The notes below the pieces were generated by a model. That model did no database searches, was not told the DNA's origin, and was given only the letters and a program-made list of their open reading frames with translations. Shown here piece by piece: positions 54,089 to 64,000 of a stretch of 64,000 nucleotides of DNA (positions are counted from its first letter, which is position 1; every line of letters starts with the position of its first letter). The DNA comes from Pseudoalteromonas undina (lineage in GTDB: Bacteria; Pseudomonadota; Gammaproteobacteria; Enterobacterales; Alteromonadaceae). The position numbers and the translations under genes were made by a program. The stretch covers positions 434,001 through 498,000 of the forward strand of contig NZ_AHCF03000003.1 in NCBI RefSeq assembly GCF_000238275.3, read 5' to 3'.

Positions 54089-54115
54089 AAAGCGCCTATA
54101 TGGCGCTTTTTTTTT
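54089..54115 (+). terminator. Terminator after galU
   Basis: AAAGCGCC (54089-54096), loop TATAT, GGCGCTTT (54102-54109), T-run to 54115. It marks the boundary before the envelope-fibre cluster. Confidence 0.94.
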
Positions 54116-54257: not shown

Positions 54258-54296
54258 TCAATTTAGCGATCTAAACTGTTGAAAGAGAAACAATCA

Positions 54297-55199
54297 ATGT
54301 GTGAATGCAGCATAAAGTATCACCGATATTTAGTTATAGCGTTACTCATGTTAATTGGGAGTGGCTGTACTATATCGCCAGATAAAACTACGTTAAATGA
54401 ACAAGTTAAAGATTCTCCTGAATATGTAACCATTACCGCACTTGAGCTTGCACAGCTAAAAGATGCCGCTTTGCAATGGCAACAGGCGCGCTCTGGTATT
54501 GAGCGGCTATTAAAATTAGAACGCGAGCTTACATATTTAGTTGATAATTTAGATATTATTAATAGTAAAGCAATAGCGCAATCAAATCAGGCTGTTAGCA
54601 ATCGCTATGCACGCTCATCAATTAAGGCTAATACATCGCCAAACCTCAGGTATGGTAATAACTACGCAAGCACGTCAGATAAAGTTGAGCGCCCAAAGCA
54701 AAGATATAGTAATCGCTACGCAAAACCAACTAATAGGGACGCTCTACAAAATCAGCGATACAACAGTCGCCATGCAAGTGTGCCTAAAAAAATGATTACA
54801 GCCCCTCCAAAAAGTTACAGTAACCGCTCTGTTCGTTCGTCAGTAAAAGCTATTAATCCAAGGATGAATAAAAAGGTCGCTTCTAAAATATCGAAGGCAA
54901 CAAAAGTGGCAATGGTTGATACTAATAGAAAGGTATTTGCTTTGCAGGTAGCTTCGCTTGATTCAGAAGAGAGTGTTGCTAAGCAGTGGAAGAAAATTAA
55001 TAGAAAAGCGGCGCCTCTATTCAGAGATAAAATTACTACTAACGTGGAAAAAGCCAAGGTCAATAATAAAACCTATTACCGATTAAAGTTAGGTGAATAC
55101 TATAACTTTAAGAGCGCCGAGGATGATTGTGAGGTATTTAAATTTTATAAAGTTGATTGCTTTGTGAGTAACTACACTGACAAACCAATTAGATTATAA
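54297..55199 (+). CDS. SPOR-domain lipoprotein with Tyr/Asn/Arg repeats
   Basis: A 300-residue predicted lipoprotein. The N terminus ends in the lipobox LIGSGC with Thr after the Cys, so outer-membrane sorting is likely. A helical segment with QWQQARSGIERLLKLEREL (about 55-85) is shared with the lipoprotein at 60934. The middle (about 95-185) is a basic low-complexity stretch with four or five degenerate repeats around YSNRYA/YGNNYA/YNSRHA. The C terminus (about 215-300) is a SPOR domain (FALQVASL, YYRLKLGEYYNFKSAEDD) ending in a C-x9-C pair. SPOR domains bind denuded glycan strands of peptidoglycan. AAAGAG precedes ATG 54297. It is first in the fibre cluster. Confidence 0.82.
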   Translation: MCECSIKYHRYLVIALLMLIGSGCTISPDKTTLNEQVKDSPEYVTITALELAQLKDAALQWQQARSGIERLLKLERELTYLVDNLDIINSKAIAQSNQAVSNRYARSSIKANTSPNLRYGNNYASTSDKVERPKQRYSNRYAKPTNRDALQNQRYNSRHASVPKKMITAPPKSYSNRSVRSSVKAINPRMNKKVASKISKATKVAMVDTNRKVFALQVASLDSEESVAKQWKKINRKAAPLFRDKITTNVEKAKVNNKTYYRLKLGEYYNFKSAEDDCEVFKFYKVDCFVSNYTDKPIRL

Positions 55200-55264
55200 A
55201 TTATTTATTTGGCGCTTTTATTGCATAATAGCTAGAGCTAGTTTTTTGTAATAGGTGCTTTAAA

Positions 55265-55861
55265 GTGAAACTTCGTTTAATAATATTACTAATACCCTTT
55301 GCATTAGCTGGTTGTAGCAACCAGCTAATGCCCGCCGACTCACAAAGCGACAAGCTTGTGCGTGAAAAAGATATAAAACCTTACTTAGAGCAATGGGATA
55401 ACAACAAAGAGCAAATAGCGCGTTTAAGCACCATGGAAGAGGACTTATCATTACTGATTCAAGCTCTTTCTGCACAAACAGATATTGATACCGTACCAGA
55501 GCCGTTGAAAGAGAAGGTAAAACGTGTTGAATATGGCTCTAAGCAATCTTTACAACTCTCATCAGAAACTGCCTTAGCCGATAACACTATCAGTACAAAC
55601 AAAGCAATTTACGGTGTGCAAATTGGACGTTATTTAGTTTCTAACGGAGCCAAAAGGCAAGTACAGCGACTAAAAGAGCAATATCCTCAATTGAACAGTA
55701 TTTTACAATACCGCATTAATGAGCAACAAAAGGAATCAACAACGTTTTATAGTGTTGTAGCAGGCCCGCTAAAAAATCAACAGCAAGCAGCGCAGCTGTG
55801 TTTATTTTTTTATAAGATGGGTAATAAATGTACCTTAGCGGCATTTTTAGAGGATGTTTAA
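55265..55861 (+). CDS. Short SPOR-like lipoprotein
   Basis: A 198-residue predicted lipoprotein starting at GTG with AGGTGC upstream. The signal peptide ends in the lipobox ALAGC followed by Ser. A helical region with EQWDNNKEQIARLSTMEEDL (about 40-65) mirrors the helical module of the neighbouring SPOR lipoproteins. The C terminus (about 115-195) is a divergent SPOR domain (YGVQIGRYL, FYSVVAGPLKNQQQAAQL) with the same C-x9-C spacing. A 14-base perfect inverted repeat lies inside codons 13-23. No function is known; context suggests a partner of the usher-like system. Confidence 0.78.
   Translation: MKLRLIILLIPFALAGCSNQLMPADSQSDKLVREKDIKPYLEQWDNNKEQIARLSTMEEDLSLLIQALSAQTDIDTVPEPLKEKVKRVEYGSKQSLQLSSETALADNTISTNKAIYGVQIGRYLVSNGAKRQVQRLKEQYPQLNSILQYRINEQQKESTTFYSVVAGPLKNQQQAAQLCLFFYKMGNKCTLAAFLEDV
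55301..55331 (+). repeat. Perfect 14-base inverted repeat inside the lipobox codons
   Basis: GCATTAGCTGGTTG (55301-55314), 3-base loop TAG, CAACCAGCTAATGC (55318-55331). The hairpin covers codons 13-23 of the short SPOR lipoprotein, 36 bases after its start. It should form a very stable mRNA structure. Confidence 0.9.
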
Positions 55862-55997
55862 GGTTTTTTACGTTTATTTTTGCATCCTGTTATTATAAAT
55901 CAAAATAAAGTAAATATTTTCTAACTTTTTAGTGATTTTGGCCGATACTTAACATAACCTGACTGACAGGTTTATACTTTATATCTAAGGGAAAACT

Positions 55998-56588
55998 ATG
56001 AACAAAATATTTACTAAAGCAGCATTAGCTGCATCAATGGCTGTTCTTTCTTTCGGCGCTGCAGCTGAATCAGTTTCGTTTCAAGCAGGTGTTACAGTTC
56101 AAAATGCTTTTACCTTGACTAACGATTCTGCACTAGATTTTGGAACAATTCGTGCCTCAGCAGATTTAGCAGCAGCTGAGACGGCTACCCTTGTTTTAGC
56201 CGCAAATCCAGCGACCTCACCTACAACTGCTTCTACATCGATTGCCGATGCTGAAATCGCAATTTTAGTACCAGGTGCACCAGCTTCTTTTTCTGTTTCT
56301 GGCGTGTCTCCTTTCGGTTCACTGACAATTACAAATCCGACAGAAACTGCAATTTCACCTGATGCAGCACCTGCTGGTACTGCAGCATTTACTTTGGGTA
56401 CTCCAACGTATTATGTGCTAACTGGCGCGACGCCTAACAGTGCTGCTACAACGACCATTCAGGTAGACGCAAATGGTGAAGCGACATTTAATGTTGGTGC
56501 CACATTAACGACAGATGCCACTACTCCTACGAGTGATTACATTGATGGCACTTACAGTGGCTCATTCACATTAGAATTAAACTATTAA
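55998..56588 (+). CDS. DUF4402 secreted protein, probable major fibre subunit
   Basis: A 196-residue protein with signal peptide (AALAASMAVLSFGAAAES, cleavage near 23). The mature part is low in charge and rich in Thr/Ala. It has the DUF4402 features: an N-terminal SALDFGTI strand, FNVGATLTTDA near 165, and the C-terminal DGTYSGSFTLELNY. The terminal alternating strand ending in Tyr resembles pilin subunits that need a chaperone. It is followed at once by a strong hairpin, a second DUF4402 gene and a PapD-like chaperone, as expected of a highly expressed major subunit. The subunit role is inferred from layout. Confidence 0.8.
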   Translation: MNKIFTKAALAASMAVLSFGAAAESVSFQAGVTVQNAFTLTNDSALDFGTIRASADLAAAETATLVLAANPATSPTTASTSIADAEIAILVPGAPASFSVSGVSPFGSLTITNPTETAISPDAAPAGTAAFTLGTPTYYVLTGATPNSAATTTIQVDANGEATFNVGATLTTDATTPTSDYIDGTYSGSFTLELNY

Positions 56589-56595
56589 TGAGCAA

Positions 56596-56620
56596 AGCCT
56601 GCTTTATTATAAAGCAGGCT
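56596..56620 (+). terminator. Intercistronic hairpin covering the next gene's ribosome-binding site
   Basis: AGCCTGCTTTA (56596-56606), loop TTA, TAAAGCAGGCT (56610-56620), followed by ATTTT. The 3' arm holds AGCAGG, the likely ribosome-binding site of ATG 56626. It may partly terminate transcription, protect the major-subunit mRNA, and hold back translation of the minor subunit. Confidence 0.75.
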
Positions 56621-56625
56621 ATTTT

Positions 56626-57075
56626 ATGAAATTAATTTTATTCATACTAGCAGCTTCCTTAACTCCAGGTTTGTGCGCGCAGGTAACACCGCTTGAGCCA
56701 TTGAGTTTTGGTAAAATTGTTATAAGTGATAATCAAAGCATTAGCTCCATAACTTTGTTGCCTAGTAATACAAATACCTTAACCAATAAGATATATTTAC
56801 TTGAAAAAGGCCATGCAGCTGAATTGCTGCTTGAAGGATACCCTGCACGTATTCAAGTAAATGTAAGTGACTTTGTAAGCAACCAACCTTTAAATAACAT
56901 TTTCGGTGGTGCATCTCTGATTTTAAATCAACTCATATACAATGCGACCATTACAACCGATACCACAGGGACTGCGTTATTGAGAGTTGGGGGGCAATTG
57001 AGTACCTCAGGTGACGGTAATACTTATAAAGATGGCATCTTTGATACTACAATTGAAGTGACGCTAAATTATTAG
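56626..57075 (+). CDS. DUF4402 secreted protein, probable minor subunit
   Basis: A 149-residue protein with signal peptide LILFILAASLTPGLCA. It shares the DUF4402 pattern with its upstream neighbour: PLSFGKIVI at the mature N terminus, LLRVGGQLSTSG near the end, and a final strand GIFDTTIEVTLNY. It is shorter than the major subunit. A hairpin that covers its ribosome-binding site would keep expression below that of the major subunit. A tip, adaptor or terminator role is plausible but is inference. Confidence 0.75.
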   Translation: MKLILFILAASLTPGLCAQVTPLEPLSFGKIVISDNQSISSITLLPSNTNTLTNKIYLLEKGHAAELLLEGYPARIQVNVSDFVSNQPLNNIFGGASLILNQLIYNATITTDTTGTALLRVGGQLSTSGDGNTYKDGIFDTTIEVTLNY

Positions 57076-57096
57076 ACAACTAGAGATGTTGATTAA

Positions 57097-57921
57097 ATGA
57101 CAATAATAAAAACTTTTTTTATCTTAGTAAGCTTTATTTTAATTAGCTTTCATTCTTATGCAAACTTACTTATTTCTCCAACAAGAATCAATTTTGATGA
57201 GCGCCAACGTGTTGCTAAAGTCATTGTTGTTAATAACTCTAATGAACCCAAAACTTATAGGTTGGAGTGGCAAGACAAAGTTGCACTAGCTGGCGGAGGG
57301 TATGCTAATTTAGCGGCTGATCAAAAAATTTCATCTTCACTTAAAAACATGGTTAGGATCAGCCCATCGCAAGTTAGATTAGCACCAGGAGAAAGGCAGA
57401 TTGTTAAGCTTGCTATTAGAAAACCGAAAGGTTTAACAGAGCAGGAATACCGATCTCATCTAGCCTTTAAAGCACTCCCTAATGAAGCTCAAAGTCAGCA
57501 ACAGAGACTAGGCATTAAGGTAAACTTACTCTTAAGCTACACTATTCCTGTTATTTTGCGAAAAGGCGCTGAAAAACCTAATGTTAATATTAGCAATTTA
57601 CAGCTTATACATAGCCCAGAAAAAAAGGCGCTTGAGATTGAAATTAAGCGAGAGGGTGACTTTAGTTCTTTTGGCAAGTTAGAAGTTTTCTTTAAGCAAA
57701 AAGGAGCGGATACAGAGAAAAAGATCGCAATGTTAAACGATTTTAGTATTTACCCTGAGCTAAAAACAACAACGGCGACGATACCAATTTTTGCAGATCA
57801 AAATATCCCGAAAAATGGCGAAGTTCGCGTCATTTATACAGGGCTTAAAGAATATCGCGATACTATTTTTAGTGAAAAGTTTGCGCCAATCAATAATGCA
57901 ATTATCGGTAATTTGAAATAG
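57097..57921 (+). CDS. PapD-like periplasmic pilus chaperone
   Basis: A 274-residue secreted protein (signal peptide to about residue 22, SFHSYAN). The first Ig-like domain starts LLISPTRINFDERQRVAKVI. It contains a G1-type segment, NMVRISPSQVRLAPGERQIV, followed by KLAIRKP, the pattern of fimbrial chaperones that lend a strand to subunits. A second Ig-like domain follows (about 150-270). It is a little longer than classical PapD. It lies between the DUF4402 subunits and the usher-like gene, with a 3-base gap to the latter. Confidence 0.88.
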   Translation: MTIIKTFFILVSFILISFHSYANLLISPTRINFDERQRVAKVIVVNNSNEPKTYRLEWQDKVALAGGGYANLAADQKISSSLKNMVRISPSQVRLAPGERQIVKLAIRKPKGLTEQEYRSHLAFKALPNEAQSQQQRLGIKVNLLLSYTIPVILRKGAEKPNVNISNLQLIHSPEKKALEIEIKREGDFSSFGKLEVFFKQKGADTEKKIAMLNDFSIYPELKTTTATIPIFADQNIPKNGEVRVIYTGLKEYRDTIFSEKFAPINNAIIGNLK

Positions 57922-57924
57922 GCG

Positions 57925-60915
57925 ATGTATTACTTTAAGCACTTAAAGTGGTTGTTGATCATTTTTTTATCAATTGATCCATTATTAGCAGCAGAGCCTG
58001 ACACTCAGGCCATTCTTGCTAGCATAAAAAAAATAGATAAAAAATGGCAGCAATACAACACTGAACAAGCTGTAAATGAGAGAGCCGAGTCTAAGCTTAA
58101 TGTGCAGCAAGGTGAGGGCATCCCCGAAGGGGAGTTATTATTTTTTTCATCGTTCGTGAAAAAAAATTACTTGGGTGAAATGCTCGGGGTGAAAAGTAAA
58201 ACAGGTGTATTAATAGATTTATTAAGTTTTTCAGAAAGCCTGGATTTTGCTATCGATATAAATAGCGATGACCTTATTGCTCAAGGGTGGTTTATTCGTG
58301 AAGATAATCAGTTTTATCTAGACCTAAATACAAACACAGCACAAATTAACGGCGCTAGATATTCATTTAACAGCCAACAAGCTTATGCTGATAACGGCGA
58401 TATGTTTGTTGATAGTAACTTGCTAGCGCAGTGGTTTTCGTTAGATATTGATATTGAATATTCAGCACTTGAGCTATATGTAAGCTCCCCTACCAAATTA
58501 CCTATAGAATTAAAACGCGAAAGAGAGCAGCGAGAAACTGTAACTAATAGAGAGTCACGTCAAGCAATATTACCGTGGAAGGCCAGTCCATACAGTGCAA
58601 TTTCATCTCCTCTTGCTGATGTGCAGCTTAGTGCAACCAAGAGTAATACGGATTCAGCGATAGGGTACTCTGTATTAGGGTCAAATGACTTAGCCTATTT
58701 TAATGCTCAGTATTTTTTTGCAGGGCGAAAACAAGATTTACTATCAGATTCAAGATTATCATTTAGCCGTCAAAGTAAAGATGCACGGTTATTAGGTCCT
58801 TTAAATGCGACAACTGTTCAATTTGGAGATGTATTAGCAACTCAAGTCGGTAAACAATTTAATAGTAGTTACGCCAGAGGAGTAAAAGTTGATAACAAAC
58901 CACTTTTTAAACAGGTTAATAGTAATCAAATTAATTTAACGGGTGCTATTCAACCAGGGTGGGATGTTGAGTTATACCGTAATGATGTACTGCTAGCGCA
59001 GCAGTTTAGTTTAGCTGATGGGCGTTATTTATTTGAGGATATTGATTTATTGTTTGGTGCTAATAATTTTGAGCTGATCTTTTATGGCCCACAAGGGCAA
59101 GTAGAGCGAAAAACAGAGCAATATTTTATAGATGGTAATAGTTTGTCAGCAGATGAGTCGTTCTATGAGTTGTCAATTACTGAGCAAGGTGAGCAGTTAT
59201 TTAATCAATCACTTTATTCGACAGAGGGCAAAGGTTGGCAGCTAGCAGGCCGTTATGAAACGGGGTTAACTGATTATTTATCGGTTTATGCTGGTACATC
59301 AATATTAAATAGTAATTCGGGTGATAATGTTAACAATTATGCTTTTGGTTCGAACCTAAGTATATTTGATAAAGTATTACTTAATCTAGATTATGAAAAA
59401 AATAATAACGATGAAGACAAGCTAGAGGTAGCTGCTAGAGGTGAGTTAATTGGTCAATCGGTACGTTTAAGCCTGTCTCAAAACAATGAAAAGATAGTTG
59501 GTGATTCGCAGACAGCGAAAGTTGAAAGTTATCAACTATATGCGGCAGGAAAGTTGTTTGATAAATCGTTTGGAAGCTTGAGCTATCAAAATACGCTCGC
59601 ATATAACAACAGAGAGTTTAGCGACTCATATTTAAGTGTTGATAATACCTTATCGTATAATTTAGGCGGTACCGTTGTTAGTAACAACTTAATTTGGCGA
59701 AAATTTGATTCTTTAGATGATGCAACAACACTTGGCAGCATGCGTCTTCAACATCGATTTGGTAAAACATACACTCGTTTTAGTGTTGACTATAGCGCAG
59801 ACTCTGGTTCAACTATACTGGGTTACCAAGCTGAATTAAGCCGTAGTTTATCTCAGAATTTGCAATCTGAATTCACACTGAGAAACTCCCGTATAAATGA
59901 TTTAGTTTCTATGGAGTTGGGTCTAAATTGGCAAAGCGATAGTTTTAGCTTAAATAGCACAATGAGTTACGATGATGATGATAACTGGCGACTAGGTTTA
60001 TTTAGTCGTTTTAGTATTGGTTTTGATACGAACACTGACGAGTACTTTTTAAGTAAAAGAAGCCTCGCAAACTCTGGCACTTTAATGGTTAGAGTCTTTC
60101 TTGATTCAAATAATAACAATATTCAAGATGACGGAGAAAAGGGAATTGAAGGCGTTAAGGTAAAAGGAGTTCAAAACTATCGCCGAGCGGTAACTAACGA
60201 AAATGGTTTAGCGATTCTTAAAGGAATGCCAGCAAATAGAACCACCGACATAGTGATTGAGTCTGGTAGTATTAGTGAGCCTTTTTTAGTTGCCGCCAAT
60301 GATGGCTTTTCTATTACACCGCGTGCCGGCTTTGTTGAATATATGGAAATCCCACTTAATAACAGTAGTGAATTAGAGGGAACTGTTTACAAACAAGATG
60401 AGCAAGGCAGTAGTGAAGTACAGCCTTTTGCTACCGTAAAATTACTCGACAAACAAGGCAAGCAAGTGGCGCAAACACAGGCTGCTTATGATGGTTATTA
60501 TTTGTTTACCGATTTACGCCCTGGCGAATATAAAGCGGTTATAGATGATGAATTTAAGCAACGTAAATCTTTAAAAGATACGCAACAGGTGGTGGTTAAA
60601 TTACCAGCGCAAGGTGAAGTAGTAATGGGCGTTGACTTTGAGCTTAAAGAAAAAACACAAACTCCAGCGTATATTGCTAATGCAGGTGGGTTTTCATCAT
60701 TGCCAATTATGAAAGCGTATTATCAATTAATTAAACGTCATTTAAATGAGCAATCAAAGCGTGATGCTTTTTATATTAAAGACGAAAAACAAAAACGGTA
60801 TATTTTAGCCGTCGCTTATGCCGAGTCTGCGCAAGGGGAACTTGAACAAGTATGTGCAGAATTAAAAGTAAAAGGCTTGAACTGCCAAGTCCAAGCGCAA
60901 CTTATTAGCCACTAA
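57925..60915 (+). CDS. Usher-like outer-membrane protein with SdrD-B-like modules and C-terminal SPOR-like domain
   Basis: A 996-residue secreted protein. In order: signal peptide (to about 22); a short helical stretch with KKWQQYN; an N-terminal domain (about 65-200) ending SPTKLPIELKREREQR; and a long region rich in beta-strands (about 215-700). Its GAIQPGWDVELYRNDVLLAQ and DGRYLFEDIDLLFGANNFEL elements recall the plug/middle region of fimbrial ushers. An SdrD-B-like module (about 713-810) has the Ca-binding-type loop FLDSNNNNIQDDGEKGIEGV. A second carboxypeptidase-regulatory-like module (about 830-905) follows. The C-terminal domain (about 925-996) is SPOR-like, with RYILAVAYAE and the C-x9-C pair. 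Classical ushers lack a SPOR-type end. Confidence 0.78.
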   Translation: MYYFKHLKWLLIIFLSIDPLLAAEPDTQAILASIKKIDKKWQQYNTEQAVNERAESKLNVQQGEGIPEGELLFFSSFVKKNYLGEMLGVKSKTGVLIDLLSFSESLDFAIDINSDDLIAQGWFIREDNQFYLDLNTNTAQINGARYSFNSQQAYADNGDMFVDSNLLAQWFSLDIDIEYSALELYVSSPTKLPIELKREREQRETVTNRESRQAILPWKASPYSAISSPLADVQLSATKSNTDSAIGYSVLGSNDLAYFNAQYFFAGRKQDLLSDSRLSFSRQSKDARLLGPLNATTVQFGDVLATQVGKQFNSSYARGVKVDNKPLFKQVNSNQINLTGAIQPGWDVELYRNDVLLAQQFSLADGRYLFEDIDLLFGANNFELIFYGPQGQVERKTEQYFIDGNSLSADESFYELSITEQGEQLFNQSLYSTEGKGWQLAGRYETGLTDYLSVYAGTSILNSNSGDNVNNYAFGSNLSIFDKVLLNLDYEKNNNDEDKLEVAARGELIGQSVRLSLSQNNEKIVGDSQTAKVESYQLYAAGKLFDKSFGSLSYQNTLAYNNREFSDSYLSVDNTLSYNLGGTVVSNNLIWRKFDSLDDATTLGSMRLQHRFGKTYTRFSVDYSADSGSTILGYQAELSRSLSQNLQSEFTLRNSRINDLVSMELGLNWQSDSFSLNSTMSYDDDDNWRLGLFSRFSIGFDTNTDEYFLSKRSLANSGTLMVRVFLDSNNNNIQDDGEKGIEGVKVKGVQNYRRAVTNENGLAILKGMPANRTTDIVIESGSISEPFLVAANDGFSITPRAGFVEYMEIPLNNSSELEGTVYKQDEQGSSEVQPFATVKLLDKQGKQVAQTQAAYDGYYLFTDLRPGEYKAVIDDEFKQRKSLKDTQQVVVKLPAQGEVVMGVDFELKEKTQTPAYIANAGGFSSLPIMKAYYQLIKRHLNEQSKRDAFYIKDEKQKRYILAVAYAESAQGELEQVCAELKVKGLNCQVQAQLISH

Positions 60916-60933
60916 TAACAATAAGGTTTAACC

Positions 60934-61593
60934 ATGCAACATGCTAATTTATATAAACGCTACTCAATACTAATTGCCTGTATTGCTGCTCTTTTTATAT
61001 CAGGATGCAGCACCACCAAAACTGCAGAATCTCCTCAGCCAATGCAAGCGAGTGCCAGCCTTTCTGAGGAAGAGTTGGCGCAGCTAAAAGCATCGTCTCA
61101 GCAGTGGCAAGCAGCCAAAGCCGGTGTTGAGCGTTTATTAGTGATTGAACAAGACTTAAAGTTATTAATAAGCCAATTAAATGCAGTGGCAAAACAAGGC
61201 TCTGCATCAACAAATACGCCTGAAGTACCAACAGCTAAAGCTTCGGCTGAAACGGTAGCACCCACAAAAGTTGCACAAAAAGCTAAAGTAGCAATGAATA
61301 CAGCTGATGAAAAACAAGCCGTTAAAGCCTTATTTTCCTTGCAAGTTGCAGCCGTTACCGACAAAGAGCGACTTAGCCAAAGCTTAAATCAAATAAAAGC
61401 CAGCGCATCTTCGTTATTTCAGGGCGAATTCGTGGCGAATGTAGAAACTATTAACGTGAGTGGCATGACTTATTACCGTTTAAAGCTTGGAGCTTATCAA
61501 AATCAAGCCAATGCCGCTGCTGATTGCGATAGACTTAAACAGCGCCAAATCAACTGCATTGTGAGCCATTACACCCAACAGCCATTAAAATAA
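60934..61593 (+). CDS. SPOR-domain lipoprotein
   Basis: A 219-residue predicted lipoprotein with lipobox LFISGC then Ser. Residues 45-80 (LAQLKASSQQWQAAKAGVER) repeat the helical module of the first cluster lipoprotein, so the two are paralogues. An Ala/Thr/Lys-rich linker (about 85-130) leads to a C-terminal SPOR domain (FSLQVAAV, YYRLKLGAYQNQANAAAD) with the C-x9-C pair. It sits 18 bases after the usher-like gene and is probably in the same operon. It probably tethers the outer-membrane apparatus to peptidoglycan; this is inferred from SPOR behaviour in other proteins. Confidence 0.85.
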   Translation: MQHANLYKRYSILIACIAALFISGCSTTKTAESPQPMQASASLSEEELAQLKASSQQWQAAKAGVERLLVIEQDLKLLISQLNAVAKQGSASTNTPEVPTAKASAETVAPTKVAQKAKVAMNTADEKQAVKALFSLQVAAVTDKERLSQSLNQIKASASSLFQGEFVANVETINVSGMTYYRLKLGAYQNQANAAADCDRLKQRQINCIVSHYTQQPLK

Positions 61594-61660
61594 ATATGCA
61601 TCTAGGGTATTAGGCATAATAATTGCTTTGTAACTATTATGTTTTTAGAGGATGGCAACT

Positions 61661-62254
61661 ATGCGCCTTTTGTTACCCTTACTATTATTAAATTTAGCGG
61701 GCTGTAGCTTAACACCCCAGCCAAAGCCAAGTATAAGCACTGATGCGCCTAAAGCGGTCATGGCACCCTATACGCTCAACCAGTATGTAAATAGCTTGAG
61801 TGCTCAGCTTAGCCATATCAAAGAGCCTTTTAAAAGCACCGCTTCAATCGCGGTCAGCAGCTTTTATTTAGCCAATGCTTTGGATTCACAAATTGCCCAA
61901 GGGCAGGGGACAGGGCTTAGTCAGCAAGTTCAAGAAAGCTTAATAACCCAATTTACTCAGTTAGGGTACAACACGGTTGAATATCGGCTTGAAAACCAAC
62001 TTAACTTATCAGCAAGGGCTGATTCAGTGTTAAGCCGCAGTACCAGTAACTTAAAGCAGCGTCAGATTATTGACTTTGTGATCACTGGTACTTTAACCCG
62101 TCAAGAACATGCTTATATTGTTAATGCTCGCATGGTAAATATGCAAACTAATCAGATTGTATCTGCCGCAAGTACTGAAATTCCCATCAATGTGATGTGG
62201 AGTAATGAAAAAATACAGCAGCGCGGTGACTATATTTACCGCAGTGAATATTAA
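61661..62254 (+). CDS. FlgO-domain lipoprotein 1
   Basis: A 197-residue predicted lipoprotein: LLLLNLAGC lipobox with Ser next. The body matches the FlgO domain of Vibrio outer-membrane lipoproteins: ASIAVSSFYLANALDSQIAQ, LSQQVQESLITQFTQLGYNT, DFVITGTLTRQEHAYIVNAR and MVNMQTNQIVSAAST. AGAGG nine bases before ATG 61661 favours this start over the ATG nine bases upstream. FlgO helps build the flagellar H-ring in Vibrio, but no flagellar gene is nearby. Here it is first of three FlgO-like genes behind the usher cluster. Confidence 0.85.
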   Translation: MRLLLPLLLLNLAGCSLTPQPKPSISTDAPKAVMAPYTLNQYVNSLSAQLSHIKEPFKSTASIAVSSFYLANALDSQIAQGQGTGLSQQVQESLITQFTQLGYNTVEYRLENQLNLSARADSVLSRSTSNLKQRQIIDFVITGTLTRQEHAYIVNARMVNMQTNQIVSAASTEIPINVMWSNEKIQQRGDYIYRSEY

Positions 62255-62266
62255 TTAGGAGCACAC

Positions 62267-62944
62267 ATGAAACGCCTACTATTAACTTTATGTTTGCCAC
62301 TGGGCTTTGGTTGTTCACAAATGACAAACCATAGTGACACGCAAATTACCGACGATGCGCCTATGTTTTTTGAGCAACGCCCTGTAGCTGCACCAACAAA
62401 TACTGATTCGCTTTATCAAAATAAAGCCGCAGTGATGAATAAAAACAAACAAGTAAATACGCCAACCCGTAAAAATATTAATCATTATGTGCGTGGCATC
62501 ATGCAAGACATGGCTGAAAACTTACAGTATGTAAATACTAAAACGCCATTGGCGGTATCAAGCTTTGTTTTTTTAGACCGTGACTACAACAATGCTGACT
62601 TAGTGGGTAACCAAATCGCAGAGAGCTTTATGCATGAGCTGCATAATTTTGGTGTGCCGGTCATTGATTTTAAAACCACCGATTATATGCGCGTAACGCC
62701 TGGCGGCGATTTTGTTTTTAGTCGCGACTACTTAGAGCTTAACCAAGAACAAAACTTTAGTTACGTATTAGCCGGCACGCTAGTAAACCACCAAGGCGGC
62801 ATATTAGTAAACGCACGTATTGTTGGCTTAGCGAGTAAAGCGGTTGTAGGCTCTGCACAGGGCTTTATTCCACAATCAGTTATTGATGCGCTAAATAGCA
62901 GTAACAGTGCTGATGGCGTTATGCTAAAACAAGCGAGTAAGTGA
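62267..62944 (+). CDS. FlgO-domain protein 2
   Basis: A 225-residue secreted protein. The signal peptide ends GFGC, an unusual lipobox with Phe at -2, so lipidation is probable but less sure than for its neighbours. An Asn/Gln-rich linker (about 25-70) precedes the FlgO domain (TPLAVSSFVFLDRDYNNADL, NQIAESFMHELHNFGVPVID, YVLAGTLVNHQGGILVNARI). It shares the ...DFKT..Y..V...GDF.FSR pattern with the next gene, so these two are closer paralogues. It lies 12 bases after gene 1. Confidence 0.82.
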   Translation: MKRLLLTLCLPLGFGCSQMTNHSDTQITDDAPMFFEQRPVAAPTNTDSLYQNKAAVMNKNKQVNTPTRKNINHYVRGIMQDMAENLQYVNTKTPLAVSSFVFLDRDYNNADLVGNQIAESFMHELHNFGVPVIDFKTTDYMRVTPGGDFVFSRDYLELNQEQNFSYVLAGTLVNHQGGILVNARIVGLASKAVVGSAQGFIPQSVIDALNSSNSADGVMLKQASK

Positions 62945-62952
62945 GGTTTATC

Positions 62953-63630
62953 ATGGCTAACTTAGCTAAGCGCTCAGCTTTAATTAGCATAAGTGCATTA
63001 TCACTATTACTTTCAGGCTGTAATTTACTTGGTGGATCTAACATGGCTGAACCCGCCAAATCTGAGCCAGAGCAAACAGTGGTAAGCAATCTTGATTTTA
63101 ACCAGATCATGGCGCAAATGCAGCAAAATGACGAGCAAGAACAATACGCCGATACAACGCAGTTTAACCCAAACAAGCATCATAAAAGCTTAGTTAACTA
63201 CGTAGAGCAAATGGCACTTGATTTAACCGACACCATGCAAGTAGCCCCGCAAGATGCAGCGATTGCAGTCACCTCGTTCGTTGATTTAGACGCAAGTTTA
63301 ACTACAGCAAGCCAGTTAGGTAATCAGTTATCAGAAACCTTCATACATCAGCTGCAAAAATTTGGTTATAGCGCGGTTGATTTTAAAACAGCCAATTTAA
63401 TTACCGTTAATGATCAAGGCGACTTTGCATTTACCCGCAACACTCGCAAGCTTGCAGGTACGAATATAGCCAGCCATGTTTTATCGGGTACATTAATTTA
63501 CCGTGCAGATGGGGTTGTTATTAACGCTCGCGTGATAAATATTGAAAATAAACGCCTTGCCGCCAGCAGCCGAACATTTATACCGCTTTACGTATTAAAT
63601 AAAGAAGATATATATTTATCAAGTAATTAA
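62953..63630 (+). CDS. FlgO-domain lipoprotein 3
   Basis: A 225-residue predicted lipoprotein with lipobox LLLSGC followed by Asn. The FlgO domain includes AAIAVTSFVDLDASLTTASQ, NQLSETFIHQLQKFGYSAVD and HVLSGTLIYRADGVVINARV. GAGG six bases before ATG 62953 decides the start; the GAGG overlaps the stop of the previous gene. It is the last gene of the cluster; I see no clear terminator before the tRNA promoter at 63644. Confidence 0.84.
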   Translation: MANLAKRSALISISALSLLLSGCNLLGGSNMAEPAKSEPEQTVVSNLDFNQIMAQMQQNDEQEQYADTTQFNPNKHHKSLVNYVEQMALDLTDTMQVAPQDAAIAVTSFVDLDASLTTASQLGNQLSETFIHQLQKFGYSAVDFKTANLITVNDQGDFAFTRNTRKLAGTNIASHVLSGTLIYRADGVVINARVINIENKRLAASSRTFIPLYVLNKEDIYLSSN

Positions 63631-63704: not shown

Positions 63705-63779
63705 GGCCTCTTAGTTAAATGGATATAACGGCCCCCTCCTAAGGGGCAGTTGCAGGTTCGATTCCTGCAGGGGCTACCA
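63705..63779 (+). tRNA. tRNA-Arg (anticodon CCU)
   Basis: A 75-base cloverleaf with encoded CCA. The acceptor arm GGCCTCT (63705-63711) pairs with AGGGGCT (63769-63775), giving one G-U at the end. The anticodon stem GCCCC/GGGGC encloses loop CTCCTAA with anticodon CCT (63738-63740), reading AGG. The T arm is GCAGG TTCGATT CCTGC. The sequence is very close to E. coli tRNA-Arg(CCU). This tRNA is a frequent integration site for mobile elements in other bacteria. Confidence 0.95.
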
Positions 63780-63953: not shown

Positions 63954-64000
63954 ATGGCGATTAAAAAGAATAAACCGGTAAACCGCTTTTATACTAATAT
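63954..64000 (+). CDS. Start of an unidentified gene, cut by window end
   Basis: An ATG at 63954 with GGA upstream opens a frame MAIKKNKPVNRFYTN that runs off the right edge after 15 codons. The basic N terminus and the position just downstream of a tRNA would fit a tyrosine recombinase of an integrated element, but 15 residues are far too few to tell. It could equally be an ordinary gene. Confidence 0.3.
   Translation, partial: MAIKKNKPVNRFYTN

Follow-up and report, generated by a model that had tools for sequence, protein, structure and literature searches.

A probable divergent chaperone-usher cluster with SPOR modules, and an adjoining set of FlgO genes, in Pseudoalteromonas undina

Do ten neighbouring genes of Pseudoalteromonas undina, encoding SPOR lipoproteins, DUF4402 pilin-like proteins, a PapD-like chaperone, an usher and FlgO proteins, build one surface machine? 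They are ten open reading frames (ORFs), all on the + strand, at positions 54297-63630 of the window, i.e. the whole 64,000-nucleotide stretch of contig NZ_AHCF03000003.1 that was analysed. The original prediction, made from the letters alone, had suggested a single machine for fibre secretion, its usher-like channel anchored to the cell wall by SPOR modules and surrounded by FlgO proteins, perhaps as a basal ring. The analysis described here makes it probable that the region holds two adjacent units: a divergent fibre system of the chaperone-usher type (SPOR1, SPOR2, D4402a, D4402b, the PapD-like chaperone, the usher with its SPOR-like tail, and SPOR3) and a separate FlgO set (FlgOa-c). The features of the region are as follows.

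54089..54109, + strand: galU intrinsic terminator hairpin, the upstream border (RNA fold z -3.96)
54297..55199, + strand: SPOR1 lipoprotein (PF05036, E 2.6e-7; signal peptide end LIGSGC; ATG start)
55265..55861, + strand: SPOR2 lipoprotein (PF05036, E 7.2e-7; lipobox LAGC)
55949..55978, + strand: promoter-like site 5' of the first pilin gene (consensus match only)
55998..56588, + strand: D4402a, probable major pilin (DUF4402; Ig-like sandwich in the model)
56596..56620, + strand: stem-loop directly 3' of the major pilin gene D4402a (z -3.73)
56626..57075, + strand: D4402b, second pilin-like subunit (PF14352, E 8.7e-7)
57097..57921, + strand: PapD-like periplasmic chaperone (PF00345, E 1.9e-7, above cut-off)
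57925..60915, + strand: usher (signal peptide, helix 27-58, N-terminal domain, plugged beta barrel, C-terminal beta domains)
60646..60912, + strand: SPOR-like tail of the usher, residues 908-996 (model fold; profile-profile comparison)
60934..61593, + strand: SPOR3 lipoprotein (PF05036, E 6e-9; lipobox ISGC)
61652..62254, + strand: FlgOa lipoprotein (PF17680, E 1.9e-32)
62267..62944, + strand: FlgOb lipoprotein (PF17680, E 5.6e-42)
62941..63630, + strand: FlgOc lipoprotein (PF17680, E 1.7e-39)
63705-63779: tRNA-Arg(CCT), the downstream border

The place, strand and borders of the ten genes, between the galU terminator and tRNA-Arg, were confirmed as originally described, and Pfam bore out the domain calls (SPOR in three proteins, DUF4402 in two, PapD_N in one and FlgO in three). 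Three features had not been described: the SPOR-like tail of the usher, the stem-loop after D4402a and, 7-8 kilobases (kb) past the window, a flgT-flgP region. For SPOR1 a TTG start at 54279 is likewise open, and promoter-like sites in the region around 55949..55978 are not in excess over shuffled sequences.

The 996-residue protein had been called usher-like by inference. Pfam is silent on this, its only matches being SdrD_B/CarboxypepD_reg close to the C-terminus; the structure prediction, however, is that of an usher, with a large beta barrel, a plug, and periplasmic N- and C-terminal domains. No match to PF00577, the Pfam usher model, was found in this protein or anywhere in its genome, and matches in the relatives L185, L186 and L192 were sub-threshold (E 7e-4 to 6e-3). 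Comparison by hhalign with E. coli K-12 FimD (0.6%) and EcpC (0.2%) gave no match, and a search of PDB sequences with a 59-row usher profile returned no usher, its best hit being SdrD (E 1.2e-4). A match to PF00577 was not treated as defining the chaperone-usher pathway; its absence does, however, bar filing the protein under a described usher clade. Automatic names such as 'carboxypeptidase-like regulatory domain-containing protein', 'MSCRAMM family protein' and 'sporulation protein' would conceal the usher function. In one Pseudoalteromonas relative (L077, G275:C3:65618-68562) the usher frame is broken into two pieces, with one stop codon inside the match.

In the predicted model the final 85 residues of the usher run beta-alpha-(alpha)-beta-beta-alpha-beta, and residues 912-995 follow the element order of the ribonucleoprotein (RNP)-like SPOR fold, an antiparallel sheet with two flanking helices; this was judged within the model of the whole usher. 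PF05036 matches the tails of 11 of the 41 members of the usher alignment at E ≤0.01, and a hidden Markov model (HMM) built from SPOR lipoproteins only matches 34 of 59, the window's tail being unmatched in both cases. When the usher tails were compared, profile to profile, with the SPOR domains of the lipoproteins they matched at 97.5% (E 8e-12), while the controls (FlgO, PapD, DUF4402, ThyA and five column-shuffled profiles) reached at most 6.2%. The iterated SPOR HMM used for reading the loci could include usher tails; the 97.5% comparison used the non-iterated one. Cys 977 and Cys 987 of the tail are invariant (59/59).

PMC6895207 names a glutamine (Q351 in DamX, Q270 in RlpA) through which SPOR domains contact denuded glycan. 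Among class I ushers, the group of the window's usher (defined by a score above 640 bits), this residue is kept in only 3 of 59 tails, against 60 of 91 separate SPOR proteins; by eye it is present in all ten class II or distant usher sequences inspected.

A second DUF4402-type system, of class II, lies in the same genome (contig C4, L136:7981-12658). Its 1072-residue usher, a paralogue of the one in the window, has a PF05036 tail, with a second SPOR-like repeat by eye, and is adjoined by DUF4402-like and PapD-like genes, for neither of which Pfam gave a match to the family concerned. Among class II ushers, PF05036 recognises the tails of L131, L132, L133, L136, L137 and L138 and both tails in L097; from outside the family it recognises those of L186 and L187 (the latter with two SPOR domains, E 3.6e-17). 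It found no match on the tails of L134, L135, L185, L188, L190, L191, L192, L194 and the short L130 and L139; in a whole-genome scan the L134 tail was matched at E 0.006. A tree of usher cores, made by a quick method, set apart class II with the two short ushers (support 99), the ushers outside the family (89) and class I (97).

The two classes differ in where SPOR domains are found. With PF05036 at E up to 0.01, and uncorrected for kinship, 17/17 class I ushers but only 3/32 class II or distant ones have a separate SPOR gene at most 10 kb away, whereas SPOR tails were detected in 2/17 and 26/32, respectively. The class II and distant sample comprised 28 of 33 mid-scoring rows (180-415 bits), both ushers of G033 and two outside the family. 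Its first part gave 0/12 with a nearby SPOR gene and its second 3/20, at distances of 6 kb (G192), 7 kb (G126) and 3.5 kb (G271). As these three exceptions appeared, the complementarity between SPOR gene and SPOR tail is, as judged from sequence, strong but not strict; it is stated on PF05036 because the SPOR HMM built in this work misses class II tails. Given this pattern and the loss of the glutamine from class I tails, we read wall anchoring as having probably shifted from the usher tail to the SPOR lipoproteins.

A gene order confined to this strain had been named as grounds for dropping the original prediction, and the gene set is in fact kept well beyond it. A full-length usher occurs in 21 of 36 Pseudoalteromonas genomes. 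In all 20 other loci of this genus thyA, PapD, usher and three FlgO genes are present, together with two DUF4402 genes in 19 (the exception being L041), an upstream SPOR gene in 19 (all but L049), a downstream SPOR gene in 13 and galU in 12. L041 (genome G034) has usher, SPOR and FlgO, but DUF4402 was not found and PapD is an 87-residue fragment, through decay, divergence or an assembly gap. The one named locus in the result of the genome-contig scan was that of Pseudoalteromonas sp. MMG007 (92% usher identity). A scan of the Pseudoalteromonas loci for lipoprotein signals, with a PROSITE-like pattern, was positive for upstream SPOR (20/25), downstream SPOR (11/14), FlgOa (16/21), FlgOb (21/21) and FlgOc (20/21) proteins, and for 1/40 DUF4402 proteins, 0/21 PapD and 0/21 ushers; gene calls in the locus scripts start at the first start codon, so that lengths and gaps may be off.

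Within the family, class I ushers were found in 50 of 246 sampled genomes and 16 of 52 genera. Thirty loci, drawn from 42 class I loci and covering all 15 genera other than Pseudoalteromonas, were read (a 31st, L177, was read separately). Every one of the 30 carries PapD and no fewer than two DUF4402 genes; a separate SPOR protein was found in 28 (the misses being L118, an 8.3 kb contig, and L121), an HMM-detected usher tail in 26 and FlgO in the stretch in 12. Overall a PapD-like gene adjoins the usher in 51/51 loci, counting the L041 fragment, and a separate SPOR gene lies near it in 49/51. Together with the SPOR-like end of the usher itself, this supports the proposal of a chaperone-usher-type fibre system with a channel linked to SPOR modules. 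Named relatives among the 120 listed of 900 matches include Thalassomonas, Shewanella, Paraglaciecola, Psychromonas, Marinomonas and Catenovulum. Across the class, long distant usher matches were seen in ten of 369 genomes besides the window's own; a single-protein query of 24 genomes from the order's other families found no usher. Genera g27 and g31 (L117, L119, L122-L126, L128) show the order usher-SPOR-DUF4402-PapD-DUF4402; there, roughly 1 kb separates the larger pilin gene from the smaller.

Both DUF4402 proteins, the putative subunits, match their Pfam family (E 1.4e-7 and 8.7e-7), and the chaperone matches PapD_N (PF00345) with 31.5 bits against a cut-off of 23. In the predicted immunoglobulin (Ig)-like sandwich of D4402a the N-terminal segment 21-38 lies outside the sheet and is a possible donor strand. 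A search of PDB sequences with the D4402a profile found no match. Of 50 loci, 28 have a stem-loop after their longest D4402 gene and none has one after the shortest; that at 56596..56620 is possibly an attenuator or mRNA stabiliser.

The FlgO genes follow a different pattern. FlgO is retained in 14 of the 15 Pseudoalteromonas genomes without a class I usher, with SPOR genes in front in seven, none in front in six and a position beside two class II ushers in one (G033); in the fifteenth, G011, FlgO and FlgT are both missing. The presence or absence of FlgO matches that of FlgT in 52 of 53 chosen genomes (both are absent from five, and G200 has FlgO without FlgT), which places FlgO with polar-type flagellar genes. 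The region 7-8 kb past the window holds flgT, an LPP20-type flgP, flgN, flgM, flgA, a CheV-like gene and rod genes; flgT (PF16539, E 1.4e-44) encodes FlgT_N, _M and _C, and the LPP20/FlgP-like gene scores 25.0 bits, just below cut-off. No FlgO gene lies between flgT and flgP in this genome. In other genera the order is often flgT-FlgO-flgP, at times with a second FlgO. Many loci have stand-alone FlgO sets, whose neighbours (EpmC, NAD kinase, a methyltransferase-oxidoreductase and a beta-ketoacyl synthase) give no functional hint.

A careful FlgOb tree was made from 65 of the 173 rows of a quick tree, long-branch rows and three others being barred by name; L103, L115 and L097 are absent. It resolved a flagellar-locus group (13 rows, support 96/94), a stand-alone group (23, 95/88) and a third group, of weak support (29, 86/77), holding all 22 usher-locus rows, usher-less Pseudoalteromonas and G079. 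The FlgO set of Thalassomonas L144, 11 kb from an usher, was placed in the stand-alone group. Inside the third group, seven rows from five genera form a clade (100/98) found only beside ushers; in the quick tree it has eight rows from six genera. Class I ushers have FlgO no more than 12 kb away in 10 of 16 genera, the contigs of g49 being too short to judge. FlgO is, therefore, separable from the fibre system in this genus, while a fibre-linked FlgO subfamily in other genera is plausible.

Some FlgO arrangements stand apart. The third FlgO gene of L101, L108, L116 and L120 carries a long fused N-terminal region (372-475 residues in all) and lies directly upstream of the DUF4402 genes. In four Pseudoalteromonas loci without a class I usher (L091, L096, L098, L099) an additional FlgO gene comes after one of 551-563 residues; the latter gene in L091, the only one tested, is an amidohydrolase by Pfam, and a cNMP-binding protein gene follows. 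One Pseudoalteromonas (L097, G033:C39) has six FlgO genes interspersed with two class II usher systems that run in opposite directions.

The favoured two-unit reading would work as follows. The PapD-like chaperone would hand the DUF4402 pilins to the usher, which would assemble them through the outer membrane, possibly by donor-strand exchange. Because the class I tail has mostly lost the glycan-contact residue, the SPOR lipoproteins would probably make the contact with the wall and the tail would serve as their dock. FlgOa-c would most likely be the genome's relocated flagellar-type FlgO set, beside the fibre unit rather than part of it.

A FlgO basal ring around this usher, comparable to the H ring of flagella and once the main idea, was demoted by the genomes that lack the usher, by the agreement of FlgO with FlgT and by the trees, and is now unlikely. 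The proximity in 10 of 16 genera, in several arrangements, speaks for it, as do the gathering of the 22 usher-locus rows in one group (at 86/77 only), the seven-row clade, four of whose five genera have further FlgO copies, and the interleaving in L097. For Pseudoalteromonas an integral ring is nevertheless not supported, FlgO being kept in the usher-less genomes and following flagella; elsewhere, stand-alone and flgT-flgP sets, ushers without nearby FlgO in g74 (Catenovulum), g57, g59, g27 and g31, and L144 speak against it. It is equally improbable that the SPOR lipoproteins and FlgO form one envelope module spanning outer membrane to peptidoglycan, perhaps flagellar, with the pilin-chaperone-usher cassette as a passenger. 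Seven Pseudoalteromonas that lack pilins, chaperone and usher do have SPOR genes immediately before the FlgO triplet, and usher-SPOR-FlgO-FlgO-SPOR blocks occur in five genera, with a variant in g48; but in g27, g31, g57, g59 and Catenovulum SPOR accompanies the usher with FlgO not nearby, the SPOR HMM finds none beside the stand-alone FlgO sets read, and the usher tail is itself SPOR-like.

Two further readings concern the fibre unit. The cluster might secrete non-fibrous DUF4402 surface proteins, as a capsule-like coat or single adhesins, and not pili. Capsule-like coats are made by some chaperone-usher systems, the matches listed for the D4402a model include subunits of that kind (Caf1 entries), and no recognisable two-domain tip adhesin was found among the ORF translations and Pfam matches of the cluster. 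The stem-loop after the first pilin gene and the two subunit genes of unequal size, which are typical of stoichiometric fibres, weigh the other way and leave this doubtful, if a little less so than the others. Rather unlikely, too, is the broader proposal that SPOR-tailed ushers are a distinct machine clamped to peptidoglycan, in which the ancestral tail bound denuded glycans, the class I tail became a dock while satellite SPOR lipoproteins took over wall binding, and, in several genera, a dedicated FlgO pair from the H ring of flagella was taken over to form a basal collar. Were this true the fibres might sit at new poles or division sites, since SPOR domains target the septum.

How, then, does the favoured pair of units compare with known systems? 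It shares with type 1 and P pili (FimD, PapC) the plugged barrel and terminal domains of the usher model, a PapD_N chaperone, Ig pilin-like subunits and the pilin-chaperone-usher gene order. Unlike them, it has an usher without a PF00577 or profile-profile match, a SPOR-like tail after the C-terminal beta domains, adjoining SPOR lipoproteins and no recognised adhesin. The top Foldseek match of D4402a is CfaB (E 0.016), and single relatives gave faint Pfam matches, below cut-offs, to TcfC (E 0.007) and Fimbrial_CS1 (E 0.009), recalling the alternate (alpha/class 5) pili CFA/I and CS1; DUF4402 is, however, a different Pfam family and no CfaE-like adhesin was seen. CFA/I and CS1 systems are not known to have SPOR parts. 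Like FtsN, DamX and RlpA, SPOR1-3 carry PF05036 (all above the 21-bit cut-off), and separate SPOR proteins mostly keep the glutamine that class I tails lack; unlike theirs, the SPOR genes adjoin an usher and not division genes. FlgO is a flagellar H-ring protein in Vibrio, according to PMC6504787. FlgOa-c resemble it in PF17680 and the lipoprotein signal, in a genome with flgT and a FlgP-like gene, but are three copies placed away from flgT-flgP, the locus at which FlgO is encoded in many other genera.

Searches of openly licensed papers brought up nothing on DUF4402, and no title that describes such a SPOR-tailed usher, a system joining FlgO, SPOR and usher proteins or a relevant chaperone-usher system of Pseudoalteromonas, though print beyond those may differ. 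The chaperone-usher pathway is known; the SPOR-tailed usher with satellite SPOR lipoproteins is, on present evidence, new. According to a recent review, it is the usher that holds chaperone-usher pili in the outer membrane (PMC7616799). An usher family with a SPOR-like domain of its own, or with SPOR lipoproteins as partners, would show a route by which long fibres in marine gammaproteobacteria could acquire a cell-wall anchor, and possibly a division-site address as well.

Beyond the cluster, two genes lie between tRNA-Arg and a DHH gene (L141:2910-5347), encoding a NACHT-domain NTPase (605 residues, PF05729, E 1.8e-7) and a 206-residue protein; an ATG of the first of them is at window position 63954. 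PADLOC found no match in the two. The pair is missing from P. translucida (L142), which suggests a tRNA-linked insertion.

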